64,000 nucleotides of DNA from Firmicutes bacterium HGW-Firmicutes-7 (GTDB lineage Bacteria; Bacillota; Clostridia; Lachnospirales; Vallitaleaceae), in assembly GCA_002841375.1 (NCBI GenBank), contig PGZO01000002.1:124001-188000 (forward strand). The letters run 5' to 3'. The translations under genes and the position numbers were made by a program. The notes below the pieces were generated by a model that worked only from the letters and a program-made list of their open reading frames with translations, was not told the DNA's origin and searched no databases. Positions within the stretch are counted from its first letter, which is position 1. The number at the start of each line of letters is the position of its first letter. Below, one piece after another: positions 981 through 51,636 of the stretch.

Positions 981-1391
981 CTATAACTCTAATTCATCCT
1001 CTTCTTCAATATCCCTCGATTTTACTGCTCCTTGATCTAGAATTTCATATTGTTTAACTATGTTATTACAAAATTTTTCAAGTTCTGGTATGTCTTTTGT
1101 AGCAGTAGCCCATATTTCATCAAGATCTAAACTATCATATTCATGAGCAAAGATATTTCTAATACCTCTTATGCTTTGCCAAGGAATTTCAGAATAAAAG
1201 TCTTTAAACTCTGTTGTGAGATGTTTTGAAAGCTCCCCTATTTGTTGAATACACATATTAATAGCATGTTTATATACTATATTGTTTTTATATGTTTGAA
1301 AATCATCATTTATGCTATTTCTGATACTAGAAATGTCAGCAGAATAACTCAAAATACGCTTAAGAATTGTATAGTTTTTATTGTTTTTCAT
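981..1391 (-). CDS. hepT: HepT-like HEPN toxin (DUF86)
   Basis: The 136-residue protein carries the HEPN ribonuclease signature RNIFAHEY at residues 78-85, i.e. Rx4HxY with R78, H83 and Y85. HEPN toxins of this family cleave RNA in the cytoplasm. In characterised HepT/MntA pairs the Tyr two positions after the His is adenylylated by the partner nucleotidyltransferase, which neutralises the toxin. The gene overlaps mntA by 14 bases, so the two are translationally linked. The C-terminus has an acidic extension ending EEEDELEL beyond the usual HEPN fold, recalling tails on other proteins of this element. The pair probably stabilises the ICE or acts in abortive infection; that is inference from the family. 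Confidence 0.85.
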   Translation of the reverse strand: MKNNKNYTILKRILSYSADISSIRNSINDDFQTYKNNIVYKHAINMCIQQIGELSKHLTTEFKDFYSEIPWQSIRGIRNIFAHEYDSLDLDEIWATATKDIPELEKFCNNIVKQYEILDQGAVKSRDIEEEDELEL

Positions 1392-1674
1392 AAATCAATA
1401 CCCTCTCTTTTTTAATTTCCTTTTTAAAATCATTTTTAAGCCCTCCTGAAGTAACAAGATCAATATTCTTATGAAGTTGATTTTGGATATCAAGTCTAAG
1501 TCCCGATAATGCAAATAAACCAATAGGATTACCCACTGTATCAACTTCTAGATCAATGTCACTCTTATCTGTTGCACTTCCTCTAGCATATGAACCAAAA
1601 AGATACACCTTATTGATACCACGTGCCTTTGCCAATGGCGTTACGGCATCACTTATTTGTTCTATGGTAAGCAT
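1378..1674 (-). CDS. mntA: MntA-like nucleotidyltransferase antitoxin
   Basis: The 98-residue protein has the minimal nucleotidyltransferase motif FGSYARGSATDKSDIDLEVD at residues 26-45: the GSYARG loop and metal-binding D39 and D41. Family members paired with HEPN toxins transfer AMP to the HepT tyrosine and so act as an enzymatic antitoxin. The ATG at 1674 follows AAGGAGGG with seven-base spacing. It is the first gene of the pair, with hepT overlapping its end. A TATAAT hexamer about 75 bases upstream may be its -10 box, but no good -35 is visible. Confidence 0.85.
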   Translation of the reverse strand: MLTIEQISDAVTPLAKARGINKVYLFGSYARGSATDKSDIDLEVDTVGNPIGLFALSGLRLDIQNQLHKNIDLVTSGGLKNDFKKEIKKERVLIYEKQ

Positions 1675-15087: not shown

Positions 15088-15411
15088 CTATTTTTTACTG
15101 TCAGCAAAATGCTGTTCATCTACAATTATTTCTGTGATATATTGCTTGTTTCCTTTATCATCATCATAGGTTCTGGTTTGTAATCTTCCTACAATGGCAA
15201 CTTGTTGGCCCTTTTTAAAATACTTTTCTGCAAATTCAGCTGATTTACCAAAGGTTACCATATTAATGAAATCTGCTTCTTGTTCACCTTCTTTTTTAAA
15301 TGGTCTATTAACTGCAAGGGTATATTTAGCCCTAGCAAGTGGTGTTTCTCCTGCTCCGTATTTTAGTTCAACATCCTTCACTAGCCTTCCAATTAAAATT
15401 ACTTTGTTCAT
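15088..15411 (-). CDS. ssb: Single-stranded DNA-binding protein
   Basis: The 107-residue protein has the OB-fold pattern of SSB: MNKVILIGRLVKDVELKY at the start, KYTLAVNRPFK, DFINMVTFGKSAEFAEKYFK, and VAIVGRLQTRTYDDDKGN. It lacks the usual acidic C-terminal tip (DDDIPF) that recruits host repair proteins, so it is the short plasmid/ICE type. It would coat the transferred single strand. Its ATG overlaps the upstream nucleotidase stop (ATGA). Confidence 0.93.
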   Translation of the reverse strand: MNKVILIGRLVKDVELKYGAGETPLARAKYTLAVNRPFKKEGEQEADFINMVTFGKSAEFAEKYFKKGQQVAIVGRLQTRTYDDDKGNKQYITEIIVDEQHFADSKK

Positions 15412-16037
15412 CTGTTTTCCTCCCTGTTATTTAGGATTATGGTTACTGAAGAAAAAGTTTGATGCTGAGCTTCTAACTCCCACTCTTCCTCGAGTTTCTT
15501 TTCCTCTTTAATTGTTCTTAAAGCGTATTCATTATTTCTTTTTGGTTTAATCTCAAATTCTAGATCTTTGACTTTTAAATTATTCCACTCAAAACGATTA
15601 GAAAATTTGGAATTATAATCTTGATCCTTTACCATTACGTTAATGCCTGACCTAAGATAATTTGCAATTTCATGAGGCGCATCATCAAAAGCAAGTTTTA
15701 TTTCAAGTGATCTTGCCAGCAGTGCTTTATCTGTAGTAAACAAAACGTCTCCATCAGGATAATTATGCCTCTTTAACCAATCTAAAGTCACATCCTTTGC
15801 ATCCTCTGGCCTAGCTGTTATATAAACTATTTCATAATCTTTGTTTAATTCATTCAGCTTGTTCATTGAGCCTGTAATAGGCTTTGCTGATTCAAAAATC
15901 CATAGATTCTTTTCAAAAAAAGATTTAGTTAAGGTAAATCTACTAGAAGGATTGGGAACCTCTCCAAACATTTCTTTTAGTACTGCATTAACATCTGCTA
16001 TTGTATTACAAATATCAACTGCAATTTTTTGCTTCAT
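15408..16037 (-). CDS. HAD-family 5'(3')-deoxyribonucleotidase-like protein (NT5C)
   Basis: The 209-residue protein has a HAD core: KIAVDICNTIADVN near the N-terminus (residues 4-17, the DxDxT-like loop with the second Asp changed), IVYITARPEDA (motif II) and LAFDDAPHEIA (motif IV). This matches the NT5C group that dephosphorylates nucleotides. The ATG at 16037 follows GGGAGG; the upstream frame lacks a ribosome site. The C-terminal 40 residues are a charged tail containing EEEWELEA, similar to acidic-Trp tails on other proteins here. It shares an ATGA overlap with ssb, so it probably serves ICE DNA metabolism. Confidence 0.7.
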   Translation of the reverse strand: MKQKIAVDICNTIADVNAVLKEMFGEVPNPSSRFTLTKSFFEKNLWIFESAKPITGSMNKLNELNKDYEIVYITARPEDAKDVTLDWLKRHNYPDGDVLFTTDKALLARSLEIKLAFDDAPHEIANYLRSGINVMVKDQDYNSKFSNRFEWNNLKVKDLEFEIKPKRNNEYALRTIKEEKKLEEEWELEAQHQTFSSVTIILNNREENR

Positions 16038-16061
16038 TAGGATATAAAACCTCCCTTCATA

Positions 16062-16093
16062 TAAAAGGAGCTTAAGCACACGCCTAAGCTCCC
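16062..16093 (-). terminator. Terminator after the giant surface protein gene
   Basis: GGGAGCTTAG pairs with CTTAAGCTCC over a short loop, followed on the minus strand by TTTTAT. It lies 8 bases after the stop at 16102 and just before the ribosome site of the nucleotidase gene. Confidence 0.65.
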
Positions 16094-28763: not shown

Positions 28764-31498
28764 ATGTCGATAGGTAATCCTTTGATGTCATCGCCAGATT
28801 TTCCCCCGACCCACACCGTGCATGAGACTTTCACCTCACACGGCGTTCCATCGTATTTGTGTTTGTAAATAACTTGTAAATCAACGAAAATTTATTTTGT
28901 GATTAATTCGTTTTGAGCAAGAATTCTTAGCCTGTTTACTATTTTCAATTGCTTATCATCCAGCTTTAAAAGCTCTATGTATTTCTGAATGGTGTTATCT
29001 TCAACCGCATGAACAAGTCTATGTACTTTATCAGTAAGAAAAATTAGATTCTTATAGATATCATAACCTCCAAATTCTTTTGGTATCTTATGATGACAAT
29101 GCATTTGACCAATTGAAAGAGATTGTATGGTGATTGCACATCTGCCTTGCTGTGCAGCAAATAAGGATAATCGGTTATCATTGTATTCTATGGATTGATC
29201 CTTAACAGGATTTCTCATCAAATACAACATCAGATTCATATCTACTTTTTCTAGATTCTTGTGAATTGTGGCTCTGCCTTCATGTGTATATTTATTAATC
29301 GATAAAGGCTTAAACATTGGATTTTTATGTTGAACAAATCCGATTGGAGCCATTGCAGTATTATGTATATATCTAATCTGCTTACTTTTCCCATAATGCT
29401 CTTTAATGCAAGGCAATAAATGCTTTCCTTCCCTTTTTAATTTGCTTTTGAATCTTGCTCCAAGGCTCTTTTTGACTGAGAAAGCAATATCAGAAAAATC
29501 ATTACAAACATGTGTAGCAAATCTGTAGTAGAAGTGAATACCTAATATATAGGCATTGTAATTTAAAACTGCTTCATAACCCTTTTCCATGTTCATAGGA
29601 TTTTGAATCTTCTTGATGTGTTCTCTCGTCTTTTTCTTGATGGCTTTTTCGGCTTTATCTGAAATATGTGATTCAACGGTATATTTAACTTGACCTTTTT
29701 TGTCTTTACCGTTTTTATGTAGCTTCAATTTAAATCCAAGGAATTCAGAGTATTCTTTCTTAAGGCTAATGACTTTGGATTTTTCAGGGCATATATCCAA
29801 TCCTAATCGTTCTTTTAACCATAGTTTTGTAGCAATAAAAATTCTTTGAGCATCTTCATGACTCCTACAAAACAATTTAAAATCATCAGCATATCTCACA
29901 ATAAAACATTCCTTAAGGTTTGCTCTCCTTATCGCTCTGTATTTATCCCCTTTATCTATCTTTTTATTGTCTTTTCTAATTTTCAGGTAGTTATAATCCG
30001 TTGGGAATTCTTCCCACTGGCTTGTAATCCACCAATCTAATTCATTCAGGACAACATTTGAAAGTAATGGTGATATGATACCACCTTGAGGTGTTCCTTT
30101 TTCTGGAAATCCAATGCCAGCTATTTCAGCTTTCAACATAACCGATAGAATACTAATCAGCTTTTTATCCCTAATTCCTAAATACCACAATTGTTTTAGT
30201 AATTTTCCATGGCTGACATTATCAAAAAATCCTTTTATATCTATGTCAACGACATAATGGAGCTTACTGACTTGCATGTACTTATAGCATTGAGCAAGGG
30301 CATTTTCAGCACTTCTATTGGGTCTAAAACCATTACTTCTTTCGTGAAATTTTGCTTCACATATTGGCTCTAATACTTGAATAATACATTGTTGAATTAG
30401 CCGATCCATAATTGTTGGAATACCTAAAGGTCTCGTTTTACCTGAATCTCCTTTTGGAATTTCTACTCTCTTGACCATTTGTGGTTGATACCACTGAAAC
30501 TTTTTTCTCACACATTCAACTAATCTTTCATCTTGCCATTTTGCCAAATCAAAAATATTTTTCTTGTCAACGCCTGCTGTTTTACTACCACTGTTCTTTT
30601 TGAGATTGCGATAAGCTAACTTGATATTTTCTTCCTGAGATATAATTTCTATCAGATTTTTAAACACCTTATTCGCTTTACTTTTCGCATATAAATCATC
30701 TTGAACATTCTGAAAATCATAGTATTCGGCGTTTCGAAGTTTTTGTTTCTTCTGTACCTTTTTCGTTGTCAAAGTCGGCTATCTCCTTAGAGGATTTTGC
30801 CTTTCTTAGTCATACTCGAACCTTTGAATTATTTACAATTATTGCTTTAACACAAACACAACTTGAGCCTATCCCTCCACGGCTTGTTATCACCGTTTCA
30901 AAGGTACTGTGGCTCTACTTTCAGATAGACTAAAGTGAGTTATATGATATTCACTTTCCTCACTACTGCTTCAACGCGTGCAATCGCTCCACATTCTATC
31001 CTTACCACGTTCCGATATTTCTATCTGTTCATATATCCTTAGGTGAATCCTATAAGCCTGTATGCTTGATAGTGCCTTTAACACTATAGGGTATTTCATA
31101 ATCACAAAAGTTTTACTTTACCTCACATACCCCACACTTTGGTGGTAATAGCATTTCTACTATTCAATGGTCTAGACCCGTACATTCAGATTTTCGTCAG
31201 TAGCTTTTTACACTACATTCTCACCATAGATATTTTATAGACTCCCGATATATCAATTGCATAGCCTACCTCTAGACCACTTTCCTCAGCAAATAAATCT
31301 GTTAGGGCAACCTTCTATCGACTTCATCGAGCTTCAAACACTTTAACTTTTGCATGTTAAAATGCCTGTCGAAGTATTAGAGTAGACGTTTCAGGGCGTT
31401 ACTCCTTCATTCCATCTATTGAAATATCAGTTCTCCAAGAACCGATTTAAATTAAATCGACCTCGTGCCTAACCTTTTCAGTTAGGAACATGTCGCAC
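28764..31498 (-). mobile_element. Group II intron with HNH-type reverse transcriptase
   Basis: The element is 2735 bases. Its 5' end reads GTGCGACATG and its 3' end CTATCGACAT. A domain V hairpin is visible at about 28809-28850, with stem CGCCGTG/CACGGTG, a GTGAAAGT cap and a CGC catalytic triad. The large reverse-transcriptase frame lies in domain IV. The 5' exon ends ATCACA; the complementary TGTGAT occurs inside the intron at 31101-31106 and is a candidate EBS1. It sits in the small pilin-like gene just after virD4. The 5' 725 bases (30773-31498) are the structured ribozyme domains without another gene. Confidence 0.88.
28892..30772 (-). CDS. ltrA: Group II intron reverse transcriptase/maturase with HNH domain
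   Basis: The 626-residue protein has an RT domain with the catalytic FIVRYADDFKLF at about 290-301, conserved GIPTIMDRLIQQ and GTPQGGIISPLLSN, a maturase (X) region and a C-terminal HNH endonuclease (CHHKIPKEFGGYDIYKNLIF, about 565-584). It helps the intron RNA splice and retargets it to intron-less copies. All key motifs are intact, so the intron can be mobile. The C-terminal HNH suggests retrohoming by second-strand cleavage. Confidence 0.95.
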   Translation of the reverse strand: MTTKKVQKKQKLRNAEYYDFQNVQDDLYAKSKANKVFKNLIEIISQEENIKLAYRNLKKNSGSKTAGVDKKNIFDLAKWQDERLVECVRKKFQWYQPQMVKRVEIPKGDSGKTRPLGIPTIMDRLIQQCIIQVLEPICEAKFHERSNGFRPNRSAENALAQCYKYMQVSKLHYVVDIDIKGFFDNVSHGKLLKQLWYLGIRDKKLISILSVMLKAEIAGIGFPEKGTPQGGIISPLLSNVVLNELDWWITSQWEEFPTDYNYLKIRKDNKKIDKGDKYRAIRRANLKECFIVRYADDFKLFCRSHEDAQRIFIATKLWLKERLGLDICPEKSKVISLKKEYSEFLGFKLKLHKNGKDKKGQVKYTVESHISDKAEKAIKKKTREHIKKIQNPMNMEKGYEAVLNYNAYILGIHFYYRFATHVCNDFSDIAFSVKKSLGARFKSKLKREGKHLLPCIKEHYGKSKQIRYIHNTAMAPIGFVQHKNPMFKPLSINKYTHEGRATIHKNLEKVDMNLMLYLMRNPVKDQSIEYNDNRLSLFAAQQGRCAITIQSLSIGQMHCHHKIPKEFGGYDIYKNLIFLTDKVHRLVHAVEDNTIQKYIELLKLDDKQLKIVNRLRILAQNELITK

Positions 31499-31751: not shown

Positions 31752-33308
31752 TTATTCTTGAAAATGCTCCCATACACCCCATAGATTTAAACCACCATTA
31801 TTATTCATTGACCTTACCTTTCTACTGTTTTCTCTCTGTTCTCTAAGCATCGTATTATGATCTTTATCTCCAAGTCCTAGCATTTTGTTAAAGATCATTT
31901 TTGAGATGTCTGGACAGTACATAATGCATGGATTTGATCTGGAAATAATAATCGAATAGGGTCTATTAATTAATCTAACCTCCGCTTCTGTAAGTAGCGC
32001 ACGAGAGGTTAGGTTAATGCTTTGTGAGGTTGATGGTGTTGAATATTTTGCATTATTGGCACTAAGAGAATAGGTGCTCACAGTATAATTACCTAACTTT
32101 TTACTTATTTCTTCTAAGGTTTCCATATCATCTGCTTGCAAATAGACCCATGTTTCACAATTACCTCGAATGATTCTAGCTACCTCCTTTCCATACTTTT
32201 CTTCTAATTGGGCAAACGATTGTAAGAACAAATTAAATCTAATTCCTCGTCCACCACCAACCGTTAATTTATTTGAAAAGTCCGGAATAGATGTAAAATT
32301 TCCAAACTCTTCAAGAAGGAAATTTATTCTTTTGCATAATCGACCTCCTCTTGCATCCGCAACAAAAACAAGCTGTTCATATATCTGTGATACAAGAAGG
32401 CTTGCCAAGCCATAATACGTTGACTTTTCATCAGGAAGTATTATGAACAGCGCAGTATTCTTACTTACTAAATCTCTAAGGTTAAAATCACTTGTTTCTG
32501 TCATAGAACTAATTAAGGGATTGGTAAACAATCTAAGCGTGGTTAACGCTGCAGTAAAAAAGCTCCCTCTTGTTTTAGCTGGAGCGATTTCTGATATTGC
32601 AACAAGTCCTTTAGATGGATGTCCATGATCTAAAGTCTTCATATACTCAATGATTGGCATTGTATTGCCAATAGTTTTACACATATTTGAAATAAAAAAA
32701 TAGACATTGGTCAAGTTTTGATACTGTCTATTAAAGCCTTTTCTGTTATCATAAACCACGCTCATTATTGCTGCTGCTATAATAGATGCTTCTCCATCAT
32801 GCCATATCCTTTCACCCTTTGCTTCTCCAACAAGTGCAGCTGTAAGATCCCACGTTGCATCAATAGCCTGTGAAATATTGTTTTGATCAACAGCATCAAT
32901 GATCGGTTGCAAAAAATTATATTGGTTAGACTTTAAAGGACTTCTAAAATCTACAACCAGTACTTCGTACCCAAGCCTTTGTAAAAAAGGATAGGTGTAT
33001 TGATATAACTCACCTTTTGGATCCGATAAAATTATAGATTCATGAGCTAGCGCCAGGGCACATATGGATTGCAGTACAATTGTCCTTGTTTTTCCTGATC
33101 TTGTAGCTCCAACAGTTATTGAATGCGTATCCTCATCAATAATATATAATTTTTCAACTGATGAAGACTGCTTTGTTCCAATAACCACTCCTCCTTTTTT
33201 CAAATAAGGTGTATTGAAAAATTGATTTTTATCTTCATTTCCTATTTCTAAGTGCTTCTCCCTTCTATTATTTAATGGTATTACCTGGTTATCTTCATCA
33301 ATCCTCAA
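31752..33308 (-). CDS. virD4: VirD4-like coupling protein, ATPase part
   Basis: The 518-residue protein is the cytoplasmic ATPase of the coupling protein: Walker A VGATRSGKTRT at about 67-77, Walker B-like INFLLEEFGNF at about 308, and the downstream QSFAQLEEKYG and NCETWVYLQAD segments. It brings relaxosome and substrates to the type IV channel. It lacks membrane helices, which are carried by the upstream gene. The start is TTG at 33308, nine bases after AAGGAGG lying inside the upstream gene, so translation is coupled. Family proteins (CD1115 type) normally hold both parts in one chain. Confidence 0.88.
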   Translation of the reverse strand: MRIDEDNQVIPLNNRREKHLEIGNEDKNQFFNTPYLKKGGVVIGTKQSSSVEKLYIIDEDTHSITVGATRSGKTRTIVLQSICALALAHESIILSDPKGELYQYTYPFLQRLGYEVLVVDFRSPLKSNQYNFLQPIIDAVDQNNISQAIDATWDLTAALVGEAKGERIWHDGEASIIAAAIMSVVYDNRKGFNRQYQNLTNVYFFISNMCKTIGNTMPIIEYMKTLDHGHPSKGLVAISEIAPAKTRGSFFTAALTTLRLFTNPLISSMTETSDFNLRDLVSKNTALFIILPDEKSTYYGLASLLVSQIYEQLVFVADARGGRLCKRINFLLEEFGNFTSIPDFSNKLTVGGGRGIRFNLFLQSFAQLEEKYGKEVARIIRGNCETWVYLQADDMETLEEISKKLGNYTVSTYSLSANNAKYSTPSTSQSINLTSRALLTEAEVRLINRPYSIIISRSNPCIMYCPDISKMIFNKMLGLGDKDHNTMLREQRENSRKVRSMNNNGGLNLWGVWEHFQE

Positions 33309-33783
33309 TAATACCTACCTCCTTAAGTCTCTTTTTTTCTTCTATTTGAATATCATTTAACCCTGAGCCTATCAAGTATTTAATAAATGGGTCGTTCTCC
33401 TTTAATTTAACAAAACTGAAGAGCTTGTTTTTTTCATCCTCCTTCATCCACTTTGCAGAACCGAATTGTTTTTGACCTGCCGGTACAGGTGTACTTATAT
33501 CAGGTGTAATTTGTACTAAATCACTTTGATAAGGTTTATCATTAGTAAAAAAGAAAAGTGCACTTATTAAAAGGACTAACGCTTCAAAACTTAAAAATAA
33601 CTTCAGGTGGCTAGAGCTTAATTTAAGACTATCCAATATGTACTCAAGCTTATACAACTTAATACCCTCAAAAGTTTTTGATAATATTAGATGCATATAG
33701 GTAGAAAAATAAATCACTAACACAGTGCCTACAACAAAGATTAAACTTGATAATATACTCCTTGCTTTTAAGTTCTTATTCAA
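33298..33783 (-). CDS. VirD4-like coupling protein, membrane part
   Basis: The 161-residue protein has two membrane helices (about 10-32 and 62-80), then YQSDLVQITPDISTPVPAGQ and FGSAKWMKEDEKNK. That sequence is normally the N-terminal part of a single VirD4 protein. Here it ends at 33298 and overlaps the ATPase gene by 11 bases. Either the coupling protein works as two chains, or an old frameshift was rescued by a new ribosome site. A recent error is unlikely because the second gene has a well-placed Shine-Dalgarno box. Confidence 0.75.
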   Translation of the reverse strand: MNKNLKARSILSSLIFVVGTVLVIYFSTYMHLILSKTFEGIKLYKLEYILDSLKLSSSHLKLFLSFEALVLLISALFFFTNDKPYQSDLVQITPDISTPVPAGQKQFGSAKWMKEDEKNKLFSFVKLKENDPFIKYLIGSGLNDIQIEEKKRLKEVGIIED

Positions 33784-40963: not shown

Positions 40964-42052
40964 TTATCTTTCCCTGTCCCAGTCTAGCCCTTCTCCTTTG
41001 GCTTTTTGAAGTCGCTTTTCTTTTAAGGCTTGTCCTTCATGATAAGTCAATGGATAGTCTTTATTATTTTTTAACTTTGGATTGCTAGACATCATTCTAG
41101 TTGCTTGGAGGACTAGCTCCTTTTTGTTTTCAAAGGCTTGTTCTTCTTTTGTAAATTCCTTGTTACTGGTTTTTTGAAATTGTTTATTTAATTCAAACTG
41201 CTTGATTAATCCCTCCTTCGTAAAATGCTCTACTGGATAGAGCTTGTCATTATTAATTTTTCTACCTGTAGGCGTTGTGAATGTTATATCCTTTCTACTA
41301 TCCTCCCATCTTACACCATAGCCTAAGGTTTTCATGTTTTGGATAAATTCCTCTTTAGATTTAGAAATTTTCCTGCATTCTTTAGCTGATAAAAAGGTTT
41401 CATGTTTATAGGATCTTCCTTCTTTTTGGGCTCTATATTCACCGCTGTTTTTACTTTTCACTTTATCTTTATTCAGTTCAATGAAGCTATGTTTTAATCC
41501 ATATTCATAGCAAAGCTTATTAGAGTATTCTATGAGTTCTCCTAATTCTTTTTTAGATTGTCGCCATTTTATACCTGTTTCTAAATTTACTGAATTTAAT
41601 ACAAAGTGCGTATGAATATGAGATTTGTCTACATGTGTAGCTGTCAAAATTTCAAATCCTTCAAATCTTTTATGCTTTAGTAACTCTAAAGAAATCTTAT
41701 GTAGTATCTCTGGTGACACTTTTTCATTTGGATGGTAGGAATGTACAAAATGAATAAACTGCCTCCCTTCATCTTTTCTATATATACCCTTGGTTACCAT
41801 CATTTCATCATAAGCTGATTCTGGACTACAATTTATTCCTGTAATTAAATTAACAGATGTCTTTTTATCATTCGTGATATAATTTATTGCCTCTAAACCT
41901 TTATTTGACTGCATTAAAGATCCCATAACATCGTATTCTACTTCTGTCTTTTCTTCATTTGCAATATATGTAAGAGATCTTTTAAGGCTATGTTTTGTTT
42001 GTGTTGCATTTTTTCTACCATTTTTTCTGTTTATAAATTCAATTGTAGCCAT
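40964..42052 (-). CDS. Relaxase (MobA/VirD2 family)
   Basis: The 362-residue protein has an N-terminal relaxase domain: MATIEFINRKNG, the candidate catalytic Tyr in SLKRSLTYIANEE, and the metal triad THVDKSHIHTHFVLNSVN at about 140-157. It nicks oriT and leads the strand into the recipient. The C-terminus is charged and ends GEGLDWDRER, a weak form of the acidic-Trp tail seen on other ICE proteins. It lies about 4 kb from MobC, and a decayed second copy sits at MobC's side. The intact reading frame suggests it is the active relaxase. Confidence 0.9.
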   Translation of the reverse strand: MATIEFINRKNGRKNATQTKHSLKRSLTYIANEEKTEVEYDVMGSLMQSNKGLEAINYITNDKKTSVNLITGINCSPESAYDEMMVTKGIYRKDEGRQFIHFVHSYHPNEKVSPEILHKISLELLKHKRFEGFEILTATHVDKSHIHTHFVLNSVNLETGIKWRQSKKELGELIEYSNKLCYEYGLKHSFIELNKDKVKSKNSGEYRAQKEGRSYKHETFLSAKECRKISKSKEEFIQNMKTLGYGVRWEDSRKDITFTTPTGRKINNDKLYPVEHFTKEGLIKQFELNKQFQKTSNKEFTKEEQAFENKKELVLQATRMMSSNPKLKNNKDYPLTYHEGQALKEKRLQKAKGEGLDWDRER

Positions 42053-42187: not shown

Positions 42188-42949
42188 TCAATACATTGGA
42201 TCGTTACTTAGGTCAGATTTCTTCACTCTAGTTGATAAGTTAATATTATATATTTTATCATATCTTTTCAAAATATCTATAACAATATTGTGGAACCACT
42301 TAGGTGCATCTGGAGCTATGTAAATATTATTAATAAGTGTGTCTAGTTTAACGTCAATATTGAAACCACCTTCCATAATTAGATTATCTGGATCGTTTAG
42401 TATTTCTTCATGAAGACTATAATGAAACAATCCTCTTAATAATCTAACTTCATTCTCATGCTCAAAACTTTTTCTCTTATAAAGAAAAGCATTCAATATA
42501 TTTGTTTCATCAAATTTGTCATTAATATAGTCAATATATTTTACGTCCCTAATGTTTAGTATAAAACCATCTGTATTGACTAATGATTGCTGTAAATCTT
42601 TCAAAGTTGTTTGTATTGCAATTCCCTCATTTGATTTTAAATATAAAGTCCACATAGCAGCAGATTCATAATTATTGGCATGCCAACAATTAAGATAAAC
42701 ATATTGTTTGATCTTTTCATGCACTTTTTCTAAGCCATTTAATACTTTATCTGAGACACCACTATATAATTCTTTTCGCATACTTTTACCAATTGATGTA
42801 TAAGAACCCTCGTAAGGATCACTCATAAAGTCTGCACGAGATAAAAACAAACTTGATGATTCAATTAATGATATGAACTTTGTAAAATCCATATATCTCC
42901 ATATCTTTTGTTCATCATCATAATTATCCACTTTATACTGTATACTCAT
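42188..42949 (-). CDS. DUF2971 domain protein
   Basis: The 253-residue protein has the DUF2971 pattern: WRYMDFTKFISLIESSSLFL, RADFMSDPYEGSY, CWHANNYESAAMWTLYLKSN, GIAIQTTLKDL and ENEVRLLRG. The family is common in prophages and mobile elements and its activity is not established. ATG at 42949 follows GGAGGAATAAA; an upstream frame has no ribosome site. It is cargo between the two relaxase copies. Confidence 0.75.
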   Translation of the reverse strand: MSIQYKVDNYDDEQKIWRYMDFTKFISLIESSSLFLSRADFMSDPYEGSYTSIGKSMRKELYSGVSDKVLNGLEKVHEKIKQYVYLNCWHANNYESAAMWTLYLKSNEGIAIQTTLKDLQQSLVNTDGFILNIRDVKYIDYINDKFDETNILNAFLYKRKSFEHENEVRLLRGLFHYSLHEEILNDPDNLIMEGGFNIDVKLDTLINNIYIAPDAPKWFHNIVIDILKRYDKIYNINLSTRVKKSDLSNDPMY

Positions 42950-43083
42950 TTTATTCCTCCAATTACGATTTAGAAAATATACAAAATATCTAATTAACTT
43001 AACCTGCGTAATAATATCATACAAATGATCTATTTAAGTCATCTTATTTTTCCATATCAGTTTTCATGGTTAAATATATTTTT

Positions 43084-45535: not shown

Positions 45536-46060
45536 CACAACTAATAATACTATGTTCCAAACCATATTCATTGCAAAGTTCATTAGAATAATCTTTGAGT
45601 TCTTTTAGTTCTTTGCGTGATTGTTGCCACTTGCGTTCAGTTTCAAAACTTACTGAACTTATTATAAAGTGAGTATGACTATGGGGCTTGTCTACATGTA
45701 TAATTGCTAAAATTTCAAAATCTTTAAATATTTCTGTACCAATTAGTTTAAGGGAGTTTCATGCAATATCGCTGGTGGTAATTTTTCTTCTGGATGATAA
45801 GAATGAACAAAATGAACAAATTGCCTTCCATCATCTTTTCTATATATACCCTTGGTTACCATCATTTCATCATAAGCTGATTCTGGGCTACAGTTTATTC
45901 CTGAAATTAAACCTGGAAATATCTTTTTTTCTTTAGTAAACACACAGTATCTTCATCTATATTCACTTTTGATTTATCTTTGTTCTACAACATATTCTAC
46001 TGCTCGCATTAGTTTTTTCTTACGTTTGTTCTTTGGATTAATAAATTTAACAATTCCCAT
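45536..46060 (-). pseudogene. Decayed relaxase copy
   Basis: The region is a broken copy of the relaxase at 40964-42052. It starts MGIVKFINPKNKRKKKLMRA at 46060, stops after VVEQR, continues in another frame with GINCSPESAYDEMMVTKGIY and then as IIHVDKPHSHTHFIISSVSF and EYGLEHSII. Frameshifts and stops interrupt it, and the C-terminal half is missing. Its start overlaps the end of mobC, the usual mobC-relaxase arrangement, so this may be the original relaxase locus. Confidence 0.85.
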
Positions 46061-46383: not shown

Positions 46384-47742
46384 CTACACTTCCAACTCCC
46401 AGTCGTCTTCGACTTCAATACCATTTTCCTTTTCATCTTCACCATAAAACTCAATATCTTCATAGCAAGCTACATTCTCAGCCTTTGACATAAGTTGATT
46501 CTTTTCTTTAAGTGATATAATGGTTTTGCTTTGTTCATTACAGTGGATAACATCCAATAATTCAATTCTGATAGGGCTAAAAATATTAGATAGCTTTTGT
46601 GATATATCAACTAATACTCTATTATTCGGATCGTTTTGTTCTTTTACTATAACCAATATATGTACAGCATTATTTGCCAGGACTGATTGCAATAGGTCTC
46701 TTGGACTTAGTGTTCTTTCAACTTTTTTTATTCCAATAATTTTATTCTTAGTATCCAGCAAGCCAATAATTACTTCTTTATCTTTTTCTTTTGCAAATCT
46801 CTTTTCAAATACTTCATATGCTGATGACGGACTATTAATGGCTTCCTCTTCTACCACCCTTATCAACTGTTGGGCGTTGATAAATTTGCCTATCCCATTT
46901 TCTAATAAATCTTTTTCAGTGGTACTTAGATCACATCCATTATAATTACTAGAATTACAAATAATATCAATTATCCTTCTTAGACTAACTTTAGGTAATT
47001 CATTGTCTTTAACTGTTAGTGATTCCAGTTTCTGCAAAGAAACTTTTGTAAGTTCAGAGATATGATATAACAACCTCTTCCCATGCATCATAAGCAGTTT
47101 ATCGAACGCGGGATTTGATGTTGGAACATTATTGATTTCTTCGAAAAGTTTTGGGTAATCAACAGCCATAGATTGATATGAATTGCTTCCGACTATTATA
47201 TGGTCCGTAATCTCAATCCCTAACGGCCTTAGTATGTCAATTATATTCATAGTAAGCGCTATGTCTTCTCTACTTGGCACTGATACTCCTGAAGGATGGT
47301 TATGACAGCAAATAATCTTTTCAGCTTCATATTCTAGTGCAGTCCTAACTACATCTCTAGGTGGTACCAAAGCTGCATTAATATCACCTTTACAAATTAC
47401 TACAGTTTTTATTAAGGTGTTGTCTTTTTTTAACAAAGCAACTACAAAAACCTCTCTATCTTTCTTGGTGACAAGAACGTTTTTGAAATAATTTGAGTAT
47501 ACATCTTTAAAAGGTGCTTCAGTCTCAACATCATTTAAATAATCATTTATTATATTGTAATTTACAAATACTTTTCTTAAATAATTAATTGCTTTTTCCT
47601 CTTCTCGACTGGGATTTATACTTGATGGTCTTTCAACTACATTTGATAACTGCGTTTCTTTAGAATAATCAATTATGCGTTCTCTTCTTATTCCAGTAAA
47701 TTTTACTAACACATCTATGAGATCGTTTTCCGATTTAATCAT
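46384..47742 (-). CDS. RadC-type JAB protein with a second, degenerate JAB domain
   Basis: The 452-residue protein has an N-terminal RadC/JAB domain with the metal motif CCHNHPSGVSVPSREDIAL at about 144-162 and an upstream catalytic-type Glu region. The C-terminal part (about 300-410) looks like a second JAB unit (EVIIGLLDTKNKIIGIKKVE, SPRDLLQSVLANNAVHILVI), but the HNHPSG position reads KEQNDPNNR. So one domain appears active and one inactive. RadC-like proteins are frequent in ICEs; their biochemical role is not settled. The C-terminus is EDDWELEV, one of the shared tails. Confidence 0.82.
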   Translation of the reverse strand: MIKSENDLIDVLVKFTGIRRERIIDYSKETQLSNVVERPSSINPSREEEKAINYLRKVFVNYNIINDYLNDVETEAPFKDVYSNYFKNVLVTKKDREVFVVALLKKDNTLIKTVVICKGDINAALVPPRDVVRTALEYEAEKIICCHNHPSGVSVPSREDIALTMNIIDILRPLGIEITDHIIVGSNSYQSMAVDYPKLFEEINNVPTSNPAFDKLLMMHGKRLLYHISELTKVSLQKLESLTVKDNELPKVSLRRIIDIICNSSNYNGCDLSTTEKDLLENGIGKFINAQQLIRVVEEEAINSPSSAYEVFEKRFAKEKDKEVIIGLLDTKNKIIGIKKVERTLSPRDLLQSVLANNAVHILVIVKEQNDPNNRVLVDISQKLSNIFSPIRIELLDVIHCNEQSKTIISLKEKNQLMSKAENVACYEDIEFYGEDEKENGIEVEDDWELEV

Positions 47743-47778
47743 TAGTTATAAACTCCTTTAGTTTAATAATTTTTTGCA

Positions 47779-47804
47779 CAAAAAAAGAGTGCCTATGACA
47801 CTCT
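47779..47804 (-). terminator. Rho-independent terminator
   Basis: AGAGTG pairs with CACTCT over a seven-base loop, followed on the minus strand by TTTTTTT. It lies 16 bases after the DUF6075-like gene. Confidence 0.7.
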
Positions 47805-47819
47805 AAAAATCTCCTATGT

Positions 47820-48209
47820 TTAAAACCATCCAGCAAAACTTTTATCCAAGACTTGATTTTCTTTTCTCAGATCAGGAAACCGAATTCTTATGGCTTCAAT
47901 TGCAATGTCAAAATTTTCTGCGTAAATCGAGTTAAAAATATTTGATACAGTCGCCAATTCACCGCATGAATCATTGTAAAGATTAAAAGCTAAACATATT
48001 AAGGCCGTGGAACTTTTGTCAAGAACAGAACTTTCGTCGTTTTTTAGATCAACTAATTTAATGTTTCTTTCTTTAAAATCGTAAAAGTAATCAACTCTGC
48101 TGTTCAGATCTTCGTTACTTGCTAAAATCCAAAACAAAGCTCTTCTTTTTAGATCCTTTTCATCTGTACCATCTTTTTCTACCAATTCTTTAAATGTGTA
48201 ATGCTTCAT
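47820..48209 (-). CDS. DUF6075-like ICE protein
   Basis: The 129-residue protein begins MKHYTFKELVEKDG and has RALFWILASNEDLNSRVDYF, FKERNIK and CLAFNLYNDS, the signature of a small ICE family (DUF6075-like) of unknown function. It has no membrane segment. ATG at 48209 follows GAAGGAGATACAAT. Confidence 0.65.
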   Translation of the reverse strand: MKHYTFKELVEKDGTDEKDLKRRALFWILASNEDLNSRVDYFYDFKERNIKLVDLKNDESSVLDKSSTALICLAFNLYNDSCGELATVSNIFNSIYAENFDIAIEAIRIRFPDLRKENQVLDKSFAGWF

Positions 48210-48269
48210 ATTGTATCTCCTTCGAATTAAATTATTAATTTATAGTAGCATATCAATCTAGATAAATAA

Positions 48270-48375
48270 ACAGAGGGCGTGGGAAACCTCCCACATATTC
48301 AGGGTCAAGGGGGAGGTAAACTCCCCTTTGCAAGCTGTTCAAGGACGAACGTCCGACGAACGGGATGCTTGCCTG
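48270..48375. other. GC-rich multi-hairpin block (candidate oriT or structured RNA)
   Basis: The block is much richer in G and C than its surroundings and folds into nested stems: GTGGGA/TCCCAC (48279-48294), CAAGGGGGAG/CTCCCCTTTG (48306-48330), and an outer GCAAGC/GCTTGC (48330-48372) enclosing GTTC/GAAC and GGACG/CGTCC. It lies upstream of radC, mobC and the relaxases. Such a layout is usual for oriT, but no nic site can be proven. Overlapping small frames on the plus strand have no ribosome site. Confidence 0.5.
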
Positions 48376-48382
48376 CTATATT

Positions 48383-49108
48383 TTATCTTTCCAATTCCCA
48401 ATCTATACATTCTCTCCCCAAATCTATTTCTTTATTTATTTCAGCTAACATTTCTACTTCTTCTGTTTCAACTGTTACTTCATGCTCTTTTTGATATGAA
48501 CGTAAATTTCTAAGTACTTGCAGCTTATTAATTGGCTCTTCTCTGTTTCCTCTATCAACTATTTTCTCAATAGCTAGAGGATATAGTTTGTTTATGTAAG
48601 TTTCATATTCTTTTGAGTTATAATCAATGGAATATTTGTCAAGAACTTCATAGGCGTTACCAACAATACGATAGGTACAATCACCAAAAGCTGCTATCTC
48701 TACATAGTGTTTTAGTTCATATCCATCAGATTCTTCAAATCTACCCATATTATCTTCGGTATAAAATTCTTTATAAACATCTATACCTAAGATCTCTTTA
48801 CTTGACCAATAAAGATTCCATCCATCAGGATCTAATGGTTTTAATAGTTCAAATACTTCTTTTGCATCATAGCTTTTGAGTCTTTTAAGTGCTAGCTTAA
48901 TTTCTATATCTAATTCACCAGACAAACTTTTAATTGTATTTTTGTAAATATCTCGACTATCCTTATGATCATTGACTTCATGACTAACTTCAGTATCTTC
49001 ATTTTTTAATTCATTATTGTTTTTACTTTCTAAATCTTGTATTTGTTTAATTTGCTCTTCTTTAATAGAGAAAAATCTGTGGAACAGTGTTTTTATTTTT
49101 TTAATCAT
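48383..49108 (-). CDS. Hypothetical ICE protein with acidic-Trp C-terminal tail
   Basis: The 241-residue protein has a basic start (MIKKIKTLFHRFFSIKEEQI), a charged low-complexity stretch and a helical region with LKRLKSYDAKEVFELLKPLD and DGYELKHYVEIAAFGDCTYR. The end is GRECIDWELER. No known catalytic motif is seen. Its tail resembles those on the RadC, Toprim and DUF5348-like proteins. It starts at ATG 49108 behind GGAGGATGCTAT. Confidence 0.55.
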   Translation of the reverse strand: MIKKIKTLFHRFFSIKEEQIKQIQDLESKNNNELKNEDTEVSHEVNDHKDSRDIYKNTIKSLSGELDIEIKLALKRLKSYDAKEVFELLKPLDPDGWNLYWSSKEILGIDVYKEFYTEDNMGRFEESDGYELKHYVEIAAFGDCTYRIVGNAYEVLDKYSIDYNSKEYETYINKLYPLAIEKIVDRGNREEPINKLQVLRNLRSYQKEHEVTVETEEVEMLAEINKEIDLGRECIDWELER

Positions 49109-49152
49109 ATAGCATCCTCCAGTTTTATTGTGTTAGGTTATTGAATAAGAAA

Positions 49153-49725
49153 TTAAATTTCTATTTCCCAATCATCGTTCTGTTCTAAATCTCTATGACC
49201 AACTTTGGCAAATTCAATATCCCATAGCGGTATTGATCCAGTGTCGCACCCATGACTATCCATTACTACGAGGTAATATCCTGTATCCCAATTAGAGTTA
49301 TATTCAATATGTCCATTAACCCACTCGCCATGATACAATACTGAAATATGTGCACCGCAAGATATTGGTAAACCATCAATTTCATATTTTCTTGTATCTT
49401 CATTAAAAGAAAAATTTGTATTACTTACTTTATTTTCATACTCAATTAAGTCCCAACATTCCGTTAGATCGTGATCTATTGCAATGCTGATCCAAAGATC
49501 TCCTAATCCATTAAATCCAACATCAGTTACAATTATCGTCCATGTATCATTCAAGTCATAATCATAAAAGCTTTCGCCTTCTTCAATTTCTTTATTCATT
49601 ATTGCCTTTTTTTCTGGCGTAAACTTCACCTTGTATTTATGTGTCCAATCTGCCCGGGCATTTTTGATAATATTATCTTCTAATACTTCATAACCTCCAA
49701 AACCAAGAATGTCTTTTATATTCAT
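49153..49725 (-). CDS. Hypothetical ICE protein, DUF5348-like second half
   Basis: The 190-residue protein has an N-terminal part with KYKVKFTPEKKAI and TWTIIVTDVGFNGLGDLWIS and a C-terminal beta part ISVLYHGEWVNGHIEYN...GYYLV, similar to small DUF5348-like domains. It ends EQNDDWEIEI. The function is unknown. The ATG at 49725 follows AAGGAG. Confidence 0.55.
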   Translation of the reverse strand: MNIKDILGFGGYEVLEDNIIKNARADWTHKYKVKFTPEKKAIMNKEIEEGESFYDYDLNDTWTIIVTDVGFNGLGDLWISIAIDHDLTECWDLIEYENKVSNTNFSFNEDTRKYEIDGLPISCGAHISVLYHGEWVNGHIEYNSNWDTGYYLVVMDSHGCDTGSIPLWDIEFAKVGHRDLEQNDDWEIEI

Positions 49726-49769
49726 CTAGACTACTCCTTTCATATATTTCTTTTCCTCATTACATTTTA

Positions 49770-49955
49770 CTATTCTTCTCTATATTGACTATCAAGTTGT
49801 TTCGCTATAGAAACATTTAATTTCATTAATATGTTATACTCTTCCGTATCAGGGTCATCAAAATGATTTTTTTTATTAAGAATAGCAACCAATTGTTTTG
49901 TTATACAGTCTTGAAGTAATACAATTTCATTTTCATTTAATTCTATTTTTTTCAT
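49770..49955 (-). CDS. Small hypothetical protein, 61 aa
   Basis: The acidic, helical protein begins MKKIELNENEIVLLQDCITK. ATG at 49955 follows AAGGAGATTTAAAAG. No motif is recognised. It lies in a run of small ICE genes. Confidence 0.5.
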   Translation of the reverse strand: MKKIELNENEIVLLQDCITKQLVAILNKKNHFDDPDTEEYNILMKLNVSIAKQLDSQYREE

Positions 49956-50009
49956 CTTTTAAATCTCCTTAATCAGCAATATGTTTCATATTTTTTATTT
50001 CCTTATAGT

Positions 50010-50360
50010 CTAAATTTGCTCGTATGCCCCACATAATTCCGGGTTTGTATCTTCATCGGGACAATCCTTATCATCTTGATGTCTGCAATCCGTACACTCA
50101 TGATGATATATTCCCATACAACCTAATTCATCTAAACAAGCTTCGTCATCTTTCGTATCTAATGGCATGCACCAAGTTCTTTCCATATCATATCCACAAT
50201 ATGGGCATTTTGGTTCTTTATGTGTCAACTTAAGTAAAGTGGTTTCGACTTGATACATGCTTAAAATCGCTTCACCGTTACACATAAGGCATTCATATTT
50301 TGCTAAATTGTCTTGGTAGTAATTAGTGTGTATGTTGTATTTTACTTTTATATCCTCCAT
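50010..50360 (-). CDS. Cys-rich zinc-ribbon-like protein
   Basis: The 116-residue protein has several Cys pairs: YECLMCNGEA, EPKCPYCGYDM, ELGCMGIYHHECTDC and DCPDEDTNPELC. The first two pairs can form one zinc ribbon and the rest a second site. It may bind nucleic acid or act as an adaptor; no family is recognised. ATG at 50360 follows AAGGAGAAACG. Confidence 0.55.
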   Translation of the reverse strand: MEDIKVKYNIHTNYYQDNLAKYECLMCNGEAILSMYQVETTLLKLTHKEPKCPYCGYDMERTWCMPLDTKDDEACLDELGCMGIYHHECTDCRHQDDKDCPDEDTNPELCGAYEQI

Positions 50361-50404
50361 CGTTTCTCCTTATAGATTAAGTTGATAGTTAAAATTTGAT
50401 AAAG

Positions 50405-51592
50405 CTATAATTCTATTTCCCAATCATCATGACCTAATTCCCCTCCCTTTTCTTCTACTAATTGCCAATGGATGAGTCGGTCAAAGGTATAAAAACTTTT
50501 CGTACATGCTTCTCCAGTAGAGTTATCAATACCAATCATCTTCCTGCCATCCCGATAATAAAATCTTCCCAAAGGTTCTTTTGTTTCTATGATTTTAGTT
50601 GCATCATTTTGATTAATCTCAATTAGTGTTCTGTTTTGCAATTCTTTATCCCAATCGATATCGGGAAATCTTTCTTTGATTTCTTTTGCCCTAACCAGAC
50701 TTTTTAGATCCTCATTATAATCATTGTGAGTGGGATATCGTTCTTCTATCTCATAATTGTTATACTTGTTTTTAATCCGCTCTACACCCCCTCGACCGGC
50801 ACCATCATTATTCAAGCATAGTGTGATTTTATTAATTTCTGGATACATTTCTAAATAATTTTCTAATGCTCTATCACCAACTCCTCCAAGGGATATTACA
50901 TGATGGTTAAATTGCTGCAAGTTAAATTGTTTTTCTATAGTCAAATAACTTAATGTCTCTACTGGTGACTCAAATACAAATAATTCCTTATCTATTCCTT
51001 GAATTGAAAAAGGAAATGCTTTATCTGAATTTTTAGCATCTCCTTTAAAGGCATCAACGTTTGTATTTGTACTTCTTAGGTTTGCGTATTTGGGATGTCC
51101 CTCTTTATCTGTACCAATAAATACGCAGTTTCTATGAATATCCTCATAAATCTTATTTTCTTTTATTAACTCGCTTAAAATTGAACTATCAATTTTTCTT
51201 GTTTGTGTTAAATAAGCTGCCATGTGTTTATAAGTATCATTTTTTTCTGGTAACACAAATTCTATATTAGCTACATGATCATTTATATCTCTTTTTATGG
51301 GCAAGTAGGTTAACTGATTTTCTAATCCTAGTAATTCTTTAATACTTTCAACCCATGTTTTTTTGTGTAAGAACATTATGAATTGAATTGGTCCACCTCC
51401 ACCTTCTTTTTGAAAGCAATTCCAACGGTTTTCAATAGGATTAACATATAGACCGCCATATCCATCTATTTTGTATGAATAGTCATTAATTCTTTTGATA
51501 TTTAAGCCCTGAGATGTTGCATAGTTTAAAATATCAACATTGTTTGCCTGTTGTATTTGGCTATCACTAAATCGTAGTTTTTCAAAGCTCAT
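50405..51592 (-). CDS. DUF3991/Toprim primase-like protein
   Basis: The 395-residue protein has an N-terminal DUF3991-like zinc-binding-type region (DILNYATSQGLNIKR, GGLYVNPIENRWNCF, GGGGPIQFIMFL) and a Toprim_2 domain (KELFVFESPVETLSYLTI, ITLCLNNDGAGRGGVERIKN). The Glu of FES and the Asp pair region mark the Toprim metal site. Such proteins are seen as primases of ICEs and could prime the complementary strand in the recipient. The C-terminus is ELGHDDWEIEL, one of the shared tails. ATG at 51592 follows AGGAGGTGTAAA; ten upstream codons lack a site. Confidence 0.8.
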   Translation of the reverse strand: MSFEKLRFSDSQIQQANNVDILNYATSQGLNIKRINDYSYKIDGYGGLYVNPIENRWNCFQKEGGGGPIQFIMFLHKKTWVESIKELLGLENQLTYLPIKRDINDHVANIEFVLPEKNDTYKHMAAYLTQTRKIDSSILSELIKENKIYEDIHRNCVFIGTDKEGHPKYANLRSTNTNVDAFKGDAKNSDKAFPFSIQGIDKELFVFESPVETLSYLTIEKQFNLQQFNHHVISLGGVGDRALENYLEMYPEINKITLCLNNDGAGRGGVERIKNKYNNYEIEERYPTHNDYNEDLKSLVRAKEIKERFPDIDWDKELQNRTLIEINQNDATKIIETKEPLGRFYYRDGRKMIGIDNSTGEACTKSFYTFDRLIHWQLVEEKGGELGHDDWEIEL

Positions 51593-51614
51593 TTTACACC
51601 TCCTGTTATATAAC

Positions 51615-51636
51615 AAAAACAACCTGTATTAGGTTG
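51615..51636 (-). terminator. Terminator after parB
   Basis: CAACCT pairs with AGGTTG over a five-base loop, followed on the minus strand by TTTTTG. It is 33 bases after the parB stop. Confidence 0.6.

Follow-up and report, generated by a model that had tools for sequence, protein, structure and literature searches.

In conjugative elements of Clostridia, proteins of unrelated families share a short C-terminal tail whose wording differs from one element to the next: the tails go with the element, and not with the protein family. They sit at the extreme C-terminus of these proteins, as type IV secretion signals do, are rare in ParA, MobC and VirD4, and have a register similar to that at the ends of relaxases. 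It is probable, judging from the sequences, that the tail is a C-terminal translocation signal common to relaxase and cargo, probably read by VirD4. The same ending on unrelated proteins, the endings that other elements have of their own, and the similar relaxase ends suggest that it is probably an address label for export with the DNA.

The window, that is the whole stretch analysed, comprises 64,000 nucleotides of contig PGZO01000002.1; all its features given here with coordinates lie on the minus strand. Four proteins end in [DI]DWE[IL]E-x, exactly where the original prediction had placed them: RadC (EDDWELEV, 46387..46410; gene 46384-47742), an orphan of 241 residues (CIDWELER, 48386..48409; gene 48383-49108), a 190-aa DUF5348 protein (NDDWEIEI, 49156..49179; gene 49153-49725) and a DUF3991/Toprim_2 protein, hereafter Toprim (HDDWEIEL, 50408..50431; gene 50405-51622). 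A Pfam search found no family common to the four. The RadC tail is carried on residues 418-452, which are predicted with low confidence (pLDDT < 50). The 241-aa protein matched only itself in 196 genomes and gave no usable fold model from its single sequence (pLDDT 48.8), and PADLOC had no match for it or for the 190-aa protein.

Looser forms had also been claimed. The MobA/VirD2-like relaxase (gene 40964-42052) does end in LDWDRER (40967..40987), with the final -ER seen in many relaxases, and the HepT-like protein (gene 981-1391; its match is below the NCBIfam cut-off) in EEEDELEL (984..1007), which pairs with the RadC tail at a score of 25 and is probably a tail of the same kind. The EEEWELEA of the NT5C-type nucleotidase (15468..15491; gene 15408-16079) is present, but it is internal, with 19 further residues before the protein end. 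ParA had been listed for its EEWEDL, and we reject it as a bearer: this is an ordinary ParA ending (relatives end in KVAVAYKNFVKEY and the like), and only 2/37 ParA ORFs have at least four acidic residues among the last eight. The DUF6075 protein of the window has no tail, although its relatives have one.

The DNA form of the motif, GANTGGGANNTNGA, occurs 16 times in the whole 4.08-Mb genome, against 6 times for its backwards control; 4 of the 16 fall within the final six residues of ORFs at least 190 aa long, and these are exactly the four main bearers. On the element's contig the motif is found on 4/51 ORFs inside the element and 0/89 outside it (p = 0.016, for an expression chosen after the tails had been seen). 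The RadC tail is encoded by GAC GAC TGG GAG TTG GAA and that of Toprim by GAT GAT TGG GAA ATA GAA, while the Toprim and 190-aa genes are identical over 18 nt at the tail; the next start codons lie 37-174 nt downstream of the four genes. Given these codon differences and gaps, the tails are not accounted for by recent copying of DNA among all four genes or by an overlapping ribosome-binding site of the next gene, and the latter cause is rejected for the window. It was also rejected for element G298 because codons differ there, although some of its genes overlap.

The expectation that DDWE[IL]E would recur at C-termini across related ICEs did not hold: literal DDWE is local, and the wording is element-specific. 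In 80 related loci, [DE]x?[WFY][DE][LIMV][DE] lies near the very end of 6/997 same-strand and 0/242 opposite-strand ORFs, and in 391 genomes the DNA pattern followed by a stop gives 18 matches versus 25 for the backwards control, so the literal motif is rejected as a general signal. Ten of the 18 are true ends of ORFs of at least 100 aa (counted stop to stop). Three are in the window. In G147 the match is a protein adjoining the Toprim there, and in G090 it is a Fic protein encoded about 36 kb downstream of that genome's Toprim. G182 and G094 each contribute a Pfam-confirmed relaxase, of the MobA/MobL and Mob_Pre types respectively, and G247 a putative Mob_Pre-like ORF. The remaining two, a leucine-rich repeat protein (G163) and a small protein (G069), look unrelated.

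Among relatives in Clostridia, several non-homologous proteins of an element end in a tail private to it (DEEMEL, DEWEQEA, DDxIDI, DEExEF, RxDAR, QGPVLGM, QGMVMER). In Acetobacterium bakii the relaxase ends in YDWEQEM, and both Toprim and a DUF7768 protein in EDEWEQEA; the NT5C protein of element L253 has a loose version of the L253 tail at its end. Bearers across elements comprise the antirestriction proteins ArdA and ArdC, Fic, NT5C nucleotidase, RadC, a giant helicase and the primase-like Toprim. One bearer of 734 aa combines Toprim, ArdC and MPTase in a single chain, and the helicase bearer, of 2368 aa, has an Eco57I methylase match below the Pfam cut-off. Toprim in more distant loci often has no tail (25/70). 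The acid fraction of cargo tails is 0.34-0.54 at positions -8 to -4; the tails of the QGPVLGM and RxDAR lineages depart from the acidic register.

We scored tail pairs within loci after removing homologous pairs (BLAST E 0.01 or better, last 14 residues excluded), which takes out gene duplication as a source of matching tails. In 83 Toprim-anchored loci, 31/7631 pairs score at least 22, while individually shuffled tails give 5.35 such pairs on average. The 27 control loci, taken from elsewhere in the same genomes or in related ones and possibly including mobile elements, give 0/1718 and no excess over their own shuffles at that threshold. A second set of 35 loci (33 found through ArdC, from 33 of the 39 ArdC matches listed) gives 12/2884 pairs at 25 or above versus 1.30 shuffled. 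Loci L034, L035, L037 and L041 are outside the pair test; rows L096, L099 and L104 (contigs the same as L038, L039 and L036) and L044, L047 and L050 (< 2.4 kb) were dropped. The original prediction staked itself on enrichment in ICE proteins over chromosomal ones, and the idea survived that test.

Cargo tails match within elements beyond chance: 0/2000 family-wise permutations reach the observed value, with families assigned by homology and seed families taken from elements with tails. For 17 loci with at least two cargo families, 1/5000 permutations reach it, and 14/5000 with the window left out; the set of ParA, ParB, MobC, VirD4, relaxase and p118 shows no clear excess (150/2000). Near-identical relatives were removed from these tests and from those of covariation and relaxase endings. 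As an illustration only, in 11 elements picked by hand after seeing the tails, similarity is 14.45 within an element versus 8.94 for the same family in other elements.

These figures also bear on whether chance, biased composition or recent gene fusion is the source, with acidic disordered ends being simply common or 3' gene ends being copied by recombination. Shuffled tails do still give some pairs, the 18 identical bases of Toprim and the 190-aa gene suit copying, and three proteins of L102, alike over up to about 28 residues, could carry one copied module. In the Toprim set, however, the counts are some six times those of the shuffles at 22 and some fifty times at 30, non-acidic tails behave like acidic ones, the control loci do not exceed their shuffles at 22 or above, and synonymous codons differ within shared tails. 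This explanation is already disfavoured, and we give it only a very slight probability.

In 50-kb parts of the Bacillota plasmids pCF10, pLS20, pVpro and CP141730, compared by eye with no homology filter, no shared cargo tail was found. High-scoring pairs there are probable paralogues in pVpro (52) and CP141730 (33) and repeats in pLS20 (58). In pCF10 the surface proteins PrgA, PrgB and PrgC have endings that pair at 20-21, which indicates that the method can sense sorting tails. The first 50 kb of phage phiC2, again with no homology filter, give 2/1117 pairs at 22 or above, one of them between neighbouring, possibly paralogous genes, and four viral contigs give 0/405 at 18 or above.

The strongest support for the translocation idea appears to come from the register of the relaxases. 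Members of three relaxase families have a similar alternating register, with acidic residues at -2 and -4 and a final R, L, I or M; the acid fractions at -2/-4 are 0.65/0.53 in relaxases, 0.49/0.54 in cargo and 0.13/0.11 in controls. The ending [DE][RLIMVF]-COOH, a rule formed on overlapping data after the relaxase endings had been seen, is found in 32/55 relaxases, 25/70 cargo proteins, 3/56 ParA, ParB, MobC and VirD4 proteins, and 16/448 control ORFs. The -ER ending is found in 20/55 relaxases versus 2/448 control ORFs, the acidic-hydrophobic form in only 2/55 Mob_Pre and MobA/MobL ORFs, and four acidic residues in the last eight in only 4/33 PF03432-type relaxases (recognised through phmmer matches to four seeds, of which two were Pfam-tested). 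The sample of 55 relaxases takes the longest ORF in mid-locus, from 30 of 44 and 30 of 42 matches listed, and may contain a few misassignments. Within a locus, the tails of relaxases are more similar to those of cargo (mean 3.27, n = 117) than to those of ParA, ParB, MobC, VirD4 and p118 (-1.03, n = 118; p 3e-5, related loci included); with related loci removed the similarity to cargo is weak, being reached by 106/5000 permutations, or 331/5000 without the window.

A register similar in relaxases could also mean that the secretion system, in reading the tail, does no more than regulate or gate the donor's relaxosome, cargo docking there and staying behind. The relaxosome accessory protein MobC, however, is without the tail (0/14 by the end rule), and many bearers are entry-phase enzymes and not DNA-processing factors. 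R388 ArdC, which is active when expressed in the recipient, donor expression being no substitute (PMC7213743), needs no donor supply and to that extent suits docking. We regard donor docking as quite improbable.

The candidate reader is the VirD4-like coupling protein of the window, which appears from its sequence to be encoded in two ORFs: an ATPase part of the CD1115 family (31752..33308) and a 161-aa protein (33298..33783) that matches single-chain VirD4 relatives over their N-terminal part. A type IV secretion system with VirD4 is encoded by the window element and by the G085 and G232 elements; none was located for G298. In 12 elements, with low power, tail divergence follows that of VirD4 with a Mantel r of 0.39 (p 0.021), as compared to 0.49 for ParA, 0.49 for Toprim, 0.23 for the relaxase and 0.19 for MobC. 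Tail wording therefore covaries with VirD4 no better than with ParA or Toprim, and lends VirD4 no specific support as the reader.

This lack of specificity, together with several bearers that act on DNA, would suit an intracellular tether between the bearers and one partner that the element encodes, such as a DNA-processing or replication hub, with no export. The model is the tip of SSB, a near-invariant DDDIPF, which like the tails places acidic and then hydrophobic residues at its free C-terminus; the annotated SSB of pLS20 ends in DDDLPF, and a 138-aa ORF of G090 in DDDIPF. The tails, however, vary by element and lie on unrelated enzymes, their endings differ from the SSB tip (the RxDAR and QGPVLGM lineages are quite unlike it), and no OB fold appeared in the bearers' Pfam results. 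Moreover, Fic, NT5C nucleotidase, ArdA and ArdC are not expected to have a common DNA partner, the SSB of L253 itself ends in PETPEI, unlike L253 cargo, and the register extends to relaxases. A tether is in our judgement unlikely. C-termini are also classical protease tags, and several of the elements encode zincin metallopeptidase domains, so the tail might be a degradation or processing signal by which a host or element protease sets protein levels in donor or recipient. Against this, the tail is present on the metallopeptidase proteins too, the search of 20 window proteins revealed no MPTase-PolyVal domain, and acidic C-termini are not known as ClpXP signals; we hold a protease signal to be very improbable.

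Known systems offer partial likenesses. The Legionella E-block sits some residues inside the end, whereas here the register is anchored at the terminal carboxyl group (-2, -4), and Dot/Icm is not the system seen here. Over 100 effectors carry the E-block as a Glu-rich motif at the C-terminus (PMC10025392), and cargo here has Glu-rich or acidic C-termini too, a likeness with no claim of membership. The same source describes a C-terminal Arg motif in the VirB/VirD4 substrates VirE2 and VirF, with 19-50 residues carrying Cre fusions (PMC10025392): those signals too are short, C-terminal and common to unrelated substrates and the relaxase MobA, but the tails here are mostly acidic-hydrophobic, private to an element, from Clostridia, and known as yet as sequences. 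An Arg-rich C-terminus of Agrobacterium type was not found in the window, where, as in most elements, tails are acidic; G298 is the one showcase element with at least two Arg in its tail (RGDAR, RDRDAR). In the F-type system of pED208 (PMC8406263), the conjugation machine likewise moves maintenance proteins besides the relaxase, but these include ParA and ParB, whereas ParA here has no tail and ParB is mixed (14/36 by the acidic rule, 1/15 by the end rule). The R388 requirement for expression in the recipient counts against export. Polyvalent proteins, proposed to travel with DNA, overlap with the tail bearers in what they do (ArdC-N, MPTase, RadC, methylase-helicase, primase, ArdA; PMC5512222); many domains are joined per chain there, whereas here separate chains have one common C-terminal label. 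The 734-aa bearer does join disparate domains and the 2368-aa helicase probably does, unlike single-domain bearers. The portion of that text at hand describes no common tail, and Fic, HipA and nucleotidase are absent from it as whole words.

Returning to the translocation signal, it is supported in part, by the enrichment, the relaxase register and the literal motif on the G182 and G094 relaxases, but not by the localized DDWE, the element-specific wording, the absence of ParA among bearers, the mostly -ER endings of relaxases or the pCF10 and pLS20 parts. In this proposal, the tail would mark the relaxase and cytoplasmic entry proteins for secretion by the element's own type IV machinery. Its form at the free carboxyl end is acidic-(D/E)-W-E-phi-E-phi in the window element and more generally (D/E)-phi-(D/E)-(phi or R)-COOH, preceded by a linker of disordered appearance. 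The marked set would be useful on entry to a new cell: antirestriction proteins, a helicase with a methylase-like region, primase-like Toprim, RadC, Fic and nucleotidase. The alternating register suggests an extended strand lying in a groove of VirD4, or of an adaptor on it; VirD4 would bind the tail and the cargo would be delivered to the recipient. That each element lineage keeps its own wording is expected if substrates and reader co-evolve. It is possible, if somewhat short of an even chance, that conjugative elements of Clostridia have a private C-terminal address code of strand-like register, to which three relaxase families would have converged, and which would export with the DNA an entry set (antirestriction, DNA methylation, Fic, nucleotide metabolism, RadC, primase) while its wording excludes proteins of host and rival elements.

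To our knowledge, which proteins are sent in Gram-positive conjugation, and how they are picked, is largely an open matter. If the label can be read, cargo would become predictable from sequence alone, orphans such as the 241-residue protein would gain a function, and it would be explained how anti-defence proteins could act before the incoming genes are expressed; the label would also provide a simple tag for protein delivery between bacteria.

The original prediction described proteins without a common fold that end alike, and this is what is found in the window, for four neighbouring genes of unrelated families: RadC ends in EDDWELEV, a 241-aa protein with no Pfam family in CIDWELER, a DUF5348 protein in NDDWEIEI and a DUF3991/Toprim protein in HDDWEIEL. 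The 64-kb window is part of a contig of 236 kb, in a genome of 4.08 Mb, and its conjugative element also encodes a VirD4 of the CD1115 family, VirB4-like and VirB11-like ATPases, a MobA/VirD2-like relaxase, MobC, ParA and ParB. Genome-wide, the DNA form of D/E-W-D/E-φ-D/E (φ, a hydrophobic residue) occurs 16 times; in only 4 cases does it fall within the final six residues of ORFs at least 190 aa long, and these are the four bearers of the window, spanning about 4 kb. Since the codons of RadC differ from those of the other bearers at identical tail residues, and since the downstream gene starts 37 to 174 nt past the tail-bearing genes, it is the protein sequence that is kept. Among the looser forms that had been proposed, the relaxase ending (LDWDRER) is as described, and HepT (EEEDELEL) is likely a looser bearer; EEEWELEA is present in the NT5C nucleotidase, but 19 residues come after it, while the EEWEDL of ParA is that family's own ending and is dropped as a tail. 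The DUF6075 protein (47820-48209, minus strand) ends in KSFAGWF, without a tail; four or more acidic residues are present among the last 8 in 14 of 20 DUF6075-type ORFs of the surveyed loci.

An alignment of the Toprim protein led to 80 named loci, nearly all in Clostridia to judge from their titles. At the closer ones the cargo genes also end alike, in a wording private to each lineage. In Petrocella, four proteins (RadC, Toprim, a 2368-aa helicase that matches Eco57I methylase weakly, and one of 149 aa) carry VDEEMEL, EEEMEL, DDEEMTV and DDGIEL; in Acetobacterium bakii, EDEWEQEA ends both Toprim and a DUF7768 protein, and YDWEQEM the relaxase. One Lachnospiraceae genome has ends of the QAASQGPVLGM type on three proteins, two of them ArdA and an AAA protein, and a genome related to it has QGMVMER-type ends on ArdC, AAA and one other protein. 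At more distant loci the Toprim endings are mostly different. With the ArdC domain, found in 32 of 382 genomes, as a second anchor, three further genomes could be recognized. In the first (G085), Fic, DUF5688, a protein that matches HipA weakly and others carry ends of the DDxIDI type, and looser forms close a Toprim-ArdC-metallopeptidase protein (EMEMDI) and an NT5C nucleotidase (DEGVDL); in the second (G232), Toprim, RadC and three more ORFs end in DEExEF; in the third (G298), ArdC, Toprim, ParB and four more ORFs have endings of the RxDxR type. VirD4 is encoded nearby in the first two; in the third neither a relaxase nor VirD4 was located. Most of the 33 ArdC stretches show no tail sharing.

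We scored same-strand pairs of non-homologous ORFs over their C-terminal 10 residues, with the shuffling of each tail as the null. A score of at least 22 was reached by 31 of 7631 pairs, in 19 of the 83 Toprim-anchored loci (shuffled mean 5.35), by 18 of 2884 pairs in the second set, confined to 6 of its 35 loci (3.52 shuffled), and by 0 of 1718 pairs in 27 control loci (0.35 shuffled). At a score of at least 30 the observed and shuffled numbers were respectively 10 and 0.20, 4 and 0.25, 0 and 0. When random non-homologous pairs were drawn across loci of the first set, one ORF from each of two loci, 43 of 40000 reached 22. In a further test, ORFs were grouped into families by homology, near-identical relatives were removed, and the tails of the remaining 34 loci were permuted within families. 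The within-element similarity of cargo tails was 10.66 versus 4.28 (sd 0.96) permuted, a value reached in 0 of 2000 permutations; for the ParA, ParB, MobC, VirD4, relaxase and p118 tails it was −0.48 versus −1.04 (150 of 2000). With the 17 loci that have at least two cargo families, the cargo value was reached in 1 of 5000 permutations, and in 14 of 5000 when the window was left out. Thus, the tails go with the element, not with the protein family.

In the RadC relatives the JAB domain is followed by a variable linker and then by the tail, in which one Glu is invariant (15 of 15). RadC of the window has about 250 extra residues with a second RadC match, the tail still being at the end; its last 35 residues have a predicted pLDDT <50, as expected if this end is disordered. 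The Toprim tail of the window comes after a C-terminal module of ~75 residues (GRFYYRDGRKMIGIDNSTGEA..., 50408-50632, minus strand), missing in five aligned relatives.

A blind search of 391 genomes of the class for the literal motif at C-termini gave no enrichment of its DNA form (18 occurrences versus 25 backwards). Ten are true ends of ORFs of at least 100 aa: three are window proteins, one is a 141-aa protein adjoining the Toprim of a related genome (G147), and one is a Fic protein of another (G090), 36 kb away from its Toprim and next to an ArdC-domain protein ending in EDEDELEM. Three more are a MobA/MobL relaxase (DDWDMEL), a Mob_Pre relaxase (KEWDLEL) and a Mob_Pre-like ORF, a candidate relaxase (KEWDLEI); the remaining two are apparently unrelated proteins.

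Because relaxase ends were among these matches, we surveyed 55 non-redundant relaxases (23 Mob_Pre, 20 MobA/MobL and 12 of the PF03432 type). An -ER ending is present in 20 of 55 (all three families, Clostridia, surveyed loci L285-L344), versus 2 of 448 control ORFs; none of 145 neighbours has it. A rule combining an acid at −2 with a final R, L, I, M, V or F, which was formed after seeing the relaxase ends and calls for fresh data, describes 32 of 55 relaxases, 25 of 70 cargo proteins, 3 of 56 ParA, ParB, MobC and VirD4 proteins and 16 of 448 controls. From position −8 to −1, the acid fractions are.25,.07,.35,.11,.53,.11,.65,.02 in relaxases and.34,.37,.46,.40,.54,.09,.49,.03 in cargo, over a flat background of.11-.15. 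This similar alternating register in cargo and in relaxases, which are obligatory substrates, is the best argument for the tail as a transport signal. Against it count the rarity of the plain acidic form in relaxases (4 of 33 of the PF03432 type, and 2 of 55 Mob_Pre and MobA/MobL ORFs) and the match in wording between relaxase and cargo inside elements, which is only weak after the removal of relatives (106 of 5000 permutations; 331 of 5000 without the window).

Other features of the window were recorded. A 66-aa ORF next to MobC (45743-45943, minus strand, ending in VHFVHSYHPEEKLPPAILHETPLN) resembles by eye part of the relaxase (40964-42052), and is perhaps a remnant of one. The VirD4-like coupling protein (31752-33783) is encoded by two overlapping ORFs of 161 and 518 aa; this split is probably real, because the shorter ORF matches relatives that are single chains of about 690 aa, and because the relative in G147 is split in the same way (165 and 507 aa). 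Inverted repeats seen by eye at 48215-48382, between the genes for the 241-aa protein and the DUF6075 protein, are a candidate oriT or regulatory site. A reverse transcriptase ORF (RVT_1, 28892-30772, minus strand) inserted among the transfer genes perhaps belongs to a group II intron. Candidate defence-family matches are PDC-S31 (42188-43024) and PDC-S09 (1378-1674, minus strand); the PDC-S09 gene overlaps the HepT-like gene (981-1391).

These results can be read against what is reported for type IV secretion. The C-terminal signals described for Gram-negative systems in the relevant passages of PMC10025392 are an Arg motif, the XVIPCD domain and the Glu-rich E-block. Neither element-private shared tails in Gram-positive elements nor a Gram-positive relaxase -ER/-EL ending was found in the parts of the open-access literature covered. 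Two results count against a transport signal: no shared cargo tails are present in those stretches of pCF10 and pLS20 that were examined, and the wording of the tails follows VirD4 no better than other proteins. A review (PMC7434980) describes accessory proteins, not relaxases, as contacting the coupling protein most strongly, whereas MobC here has no tail. On delivery itself, a polyvalent-protein study (PMC5512222) proposed it for activities that overlap with those seen here, and pED208 is described as delivering proteins into recipients in part of PMC8406263. The R388 ArdC counts against delivery: in the pertinent part of PMC7213743 it is required in the recipient and donor expression is no substitute, although export was not ruled out by its authors. 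The analysis shows that the tail is present, where it sits, in what register, that its sharing is specific to the element, and which kinds of cargo bear it. Most likely it is an extended peptide whose carboxyl end is free. We infer that it would be read by the element's VirD4 or by an adaptor, and that this docking would let relaxase and cargo into the channel, for delivery; many of the cargo proteins are of a kind expected to aid the DNA on entry.
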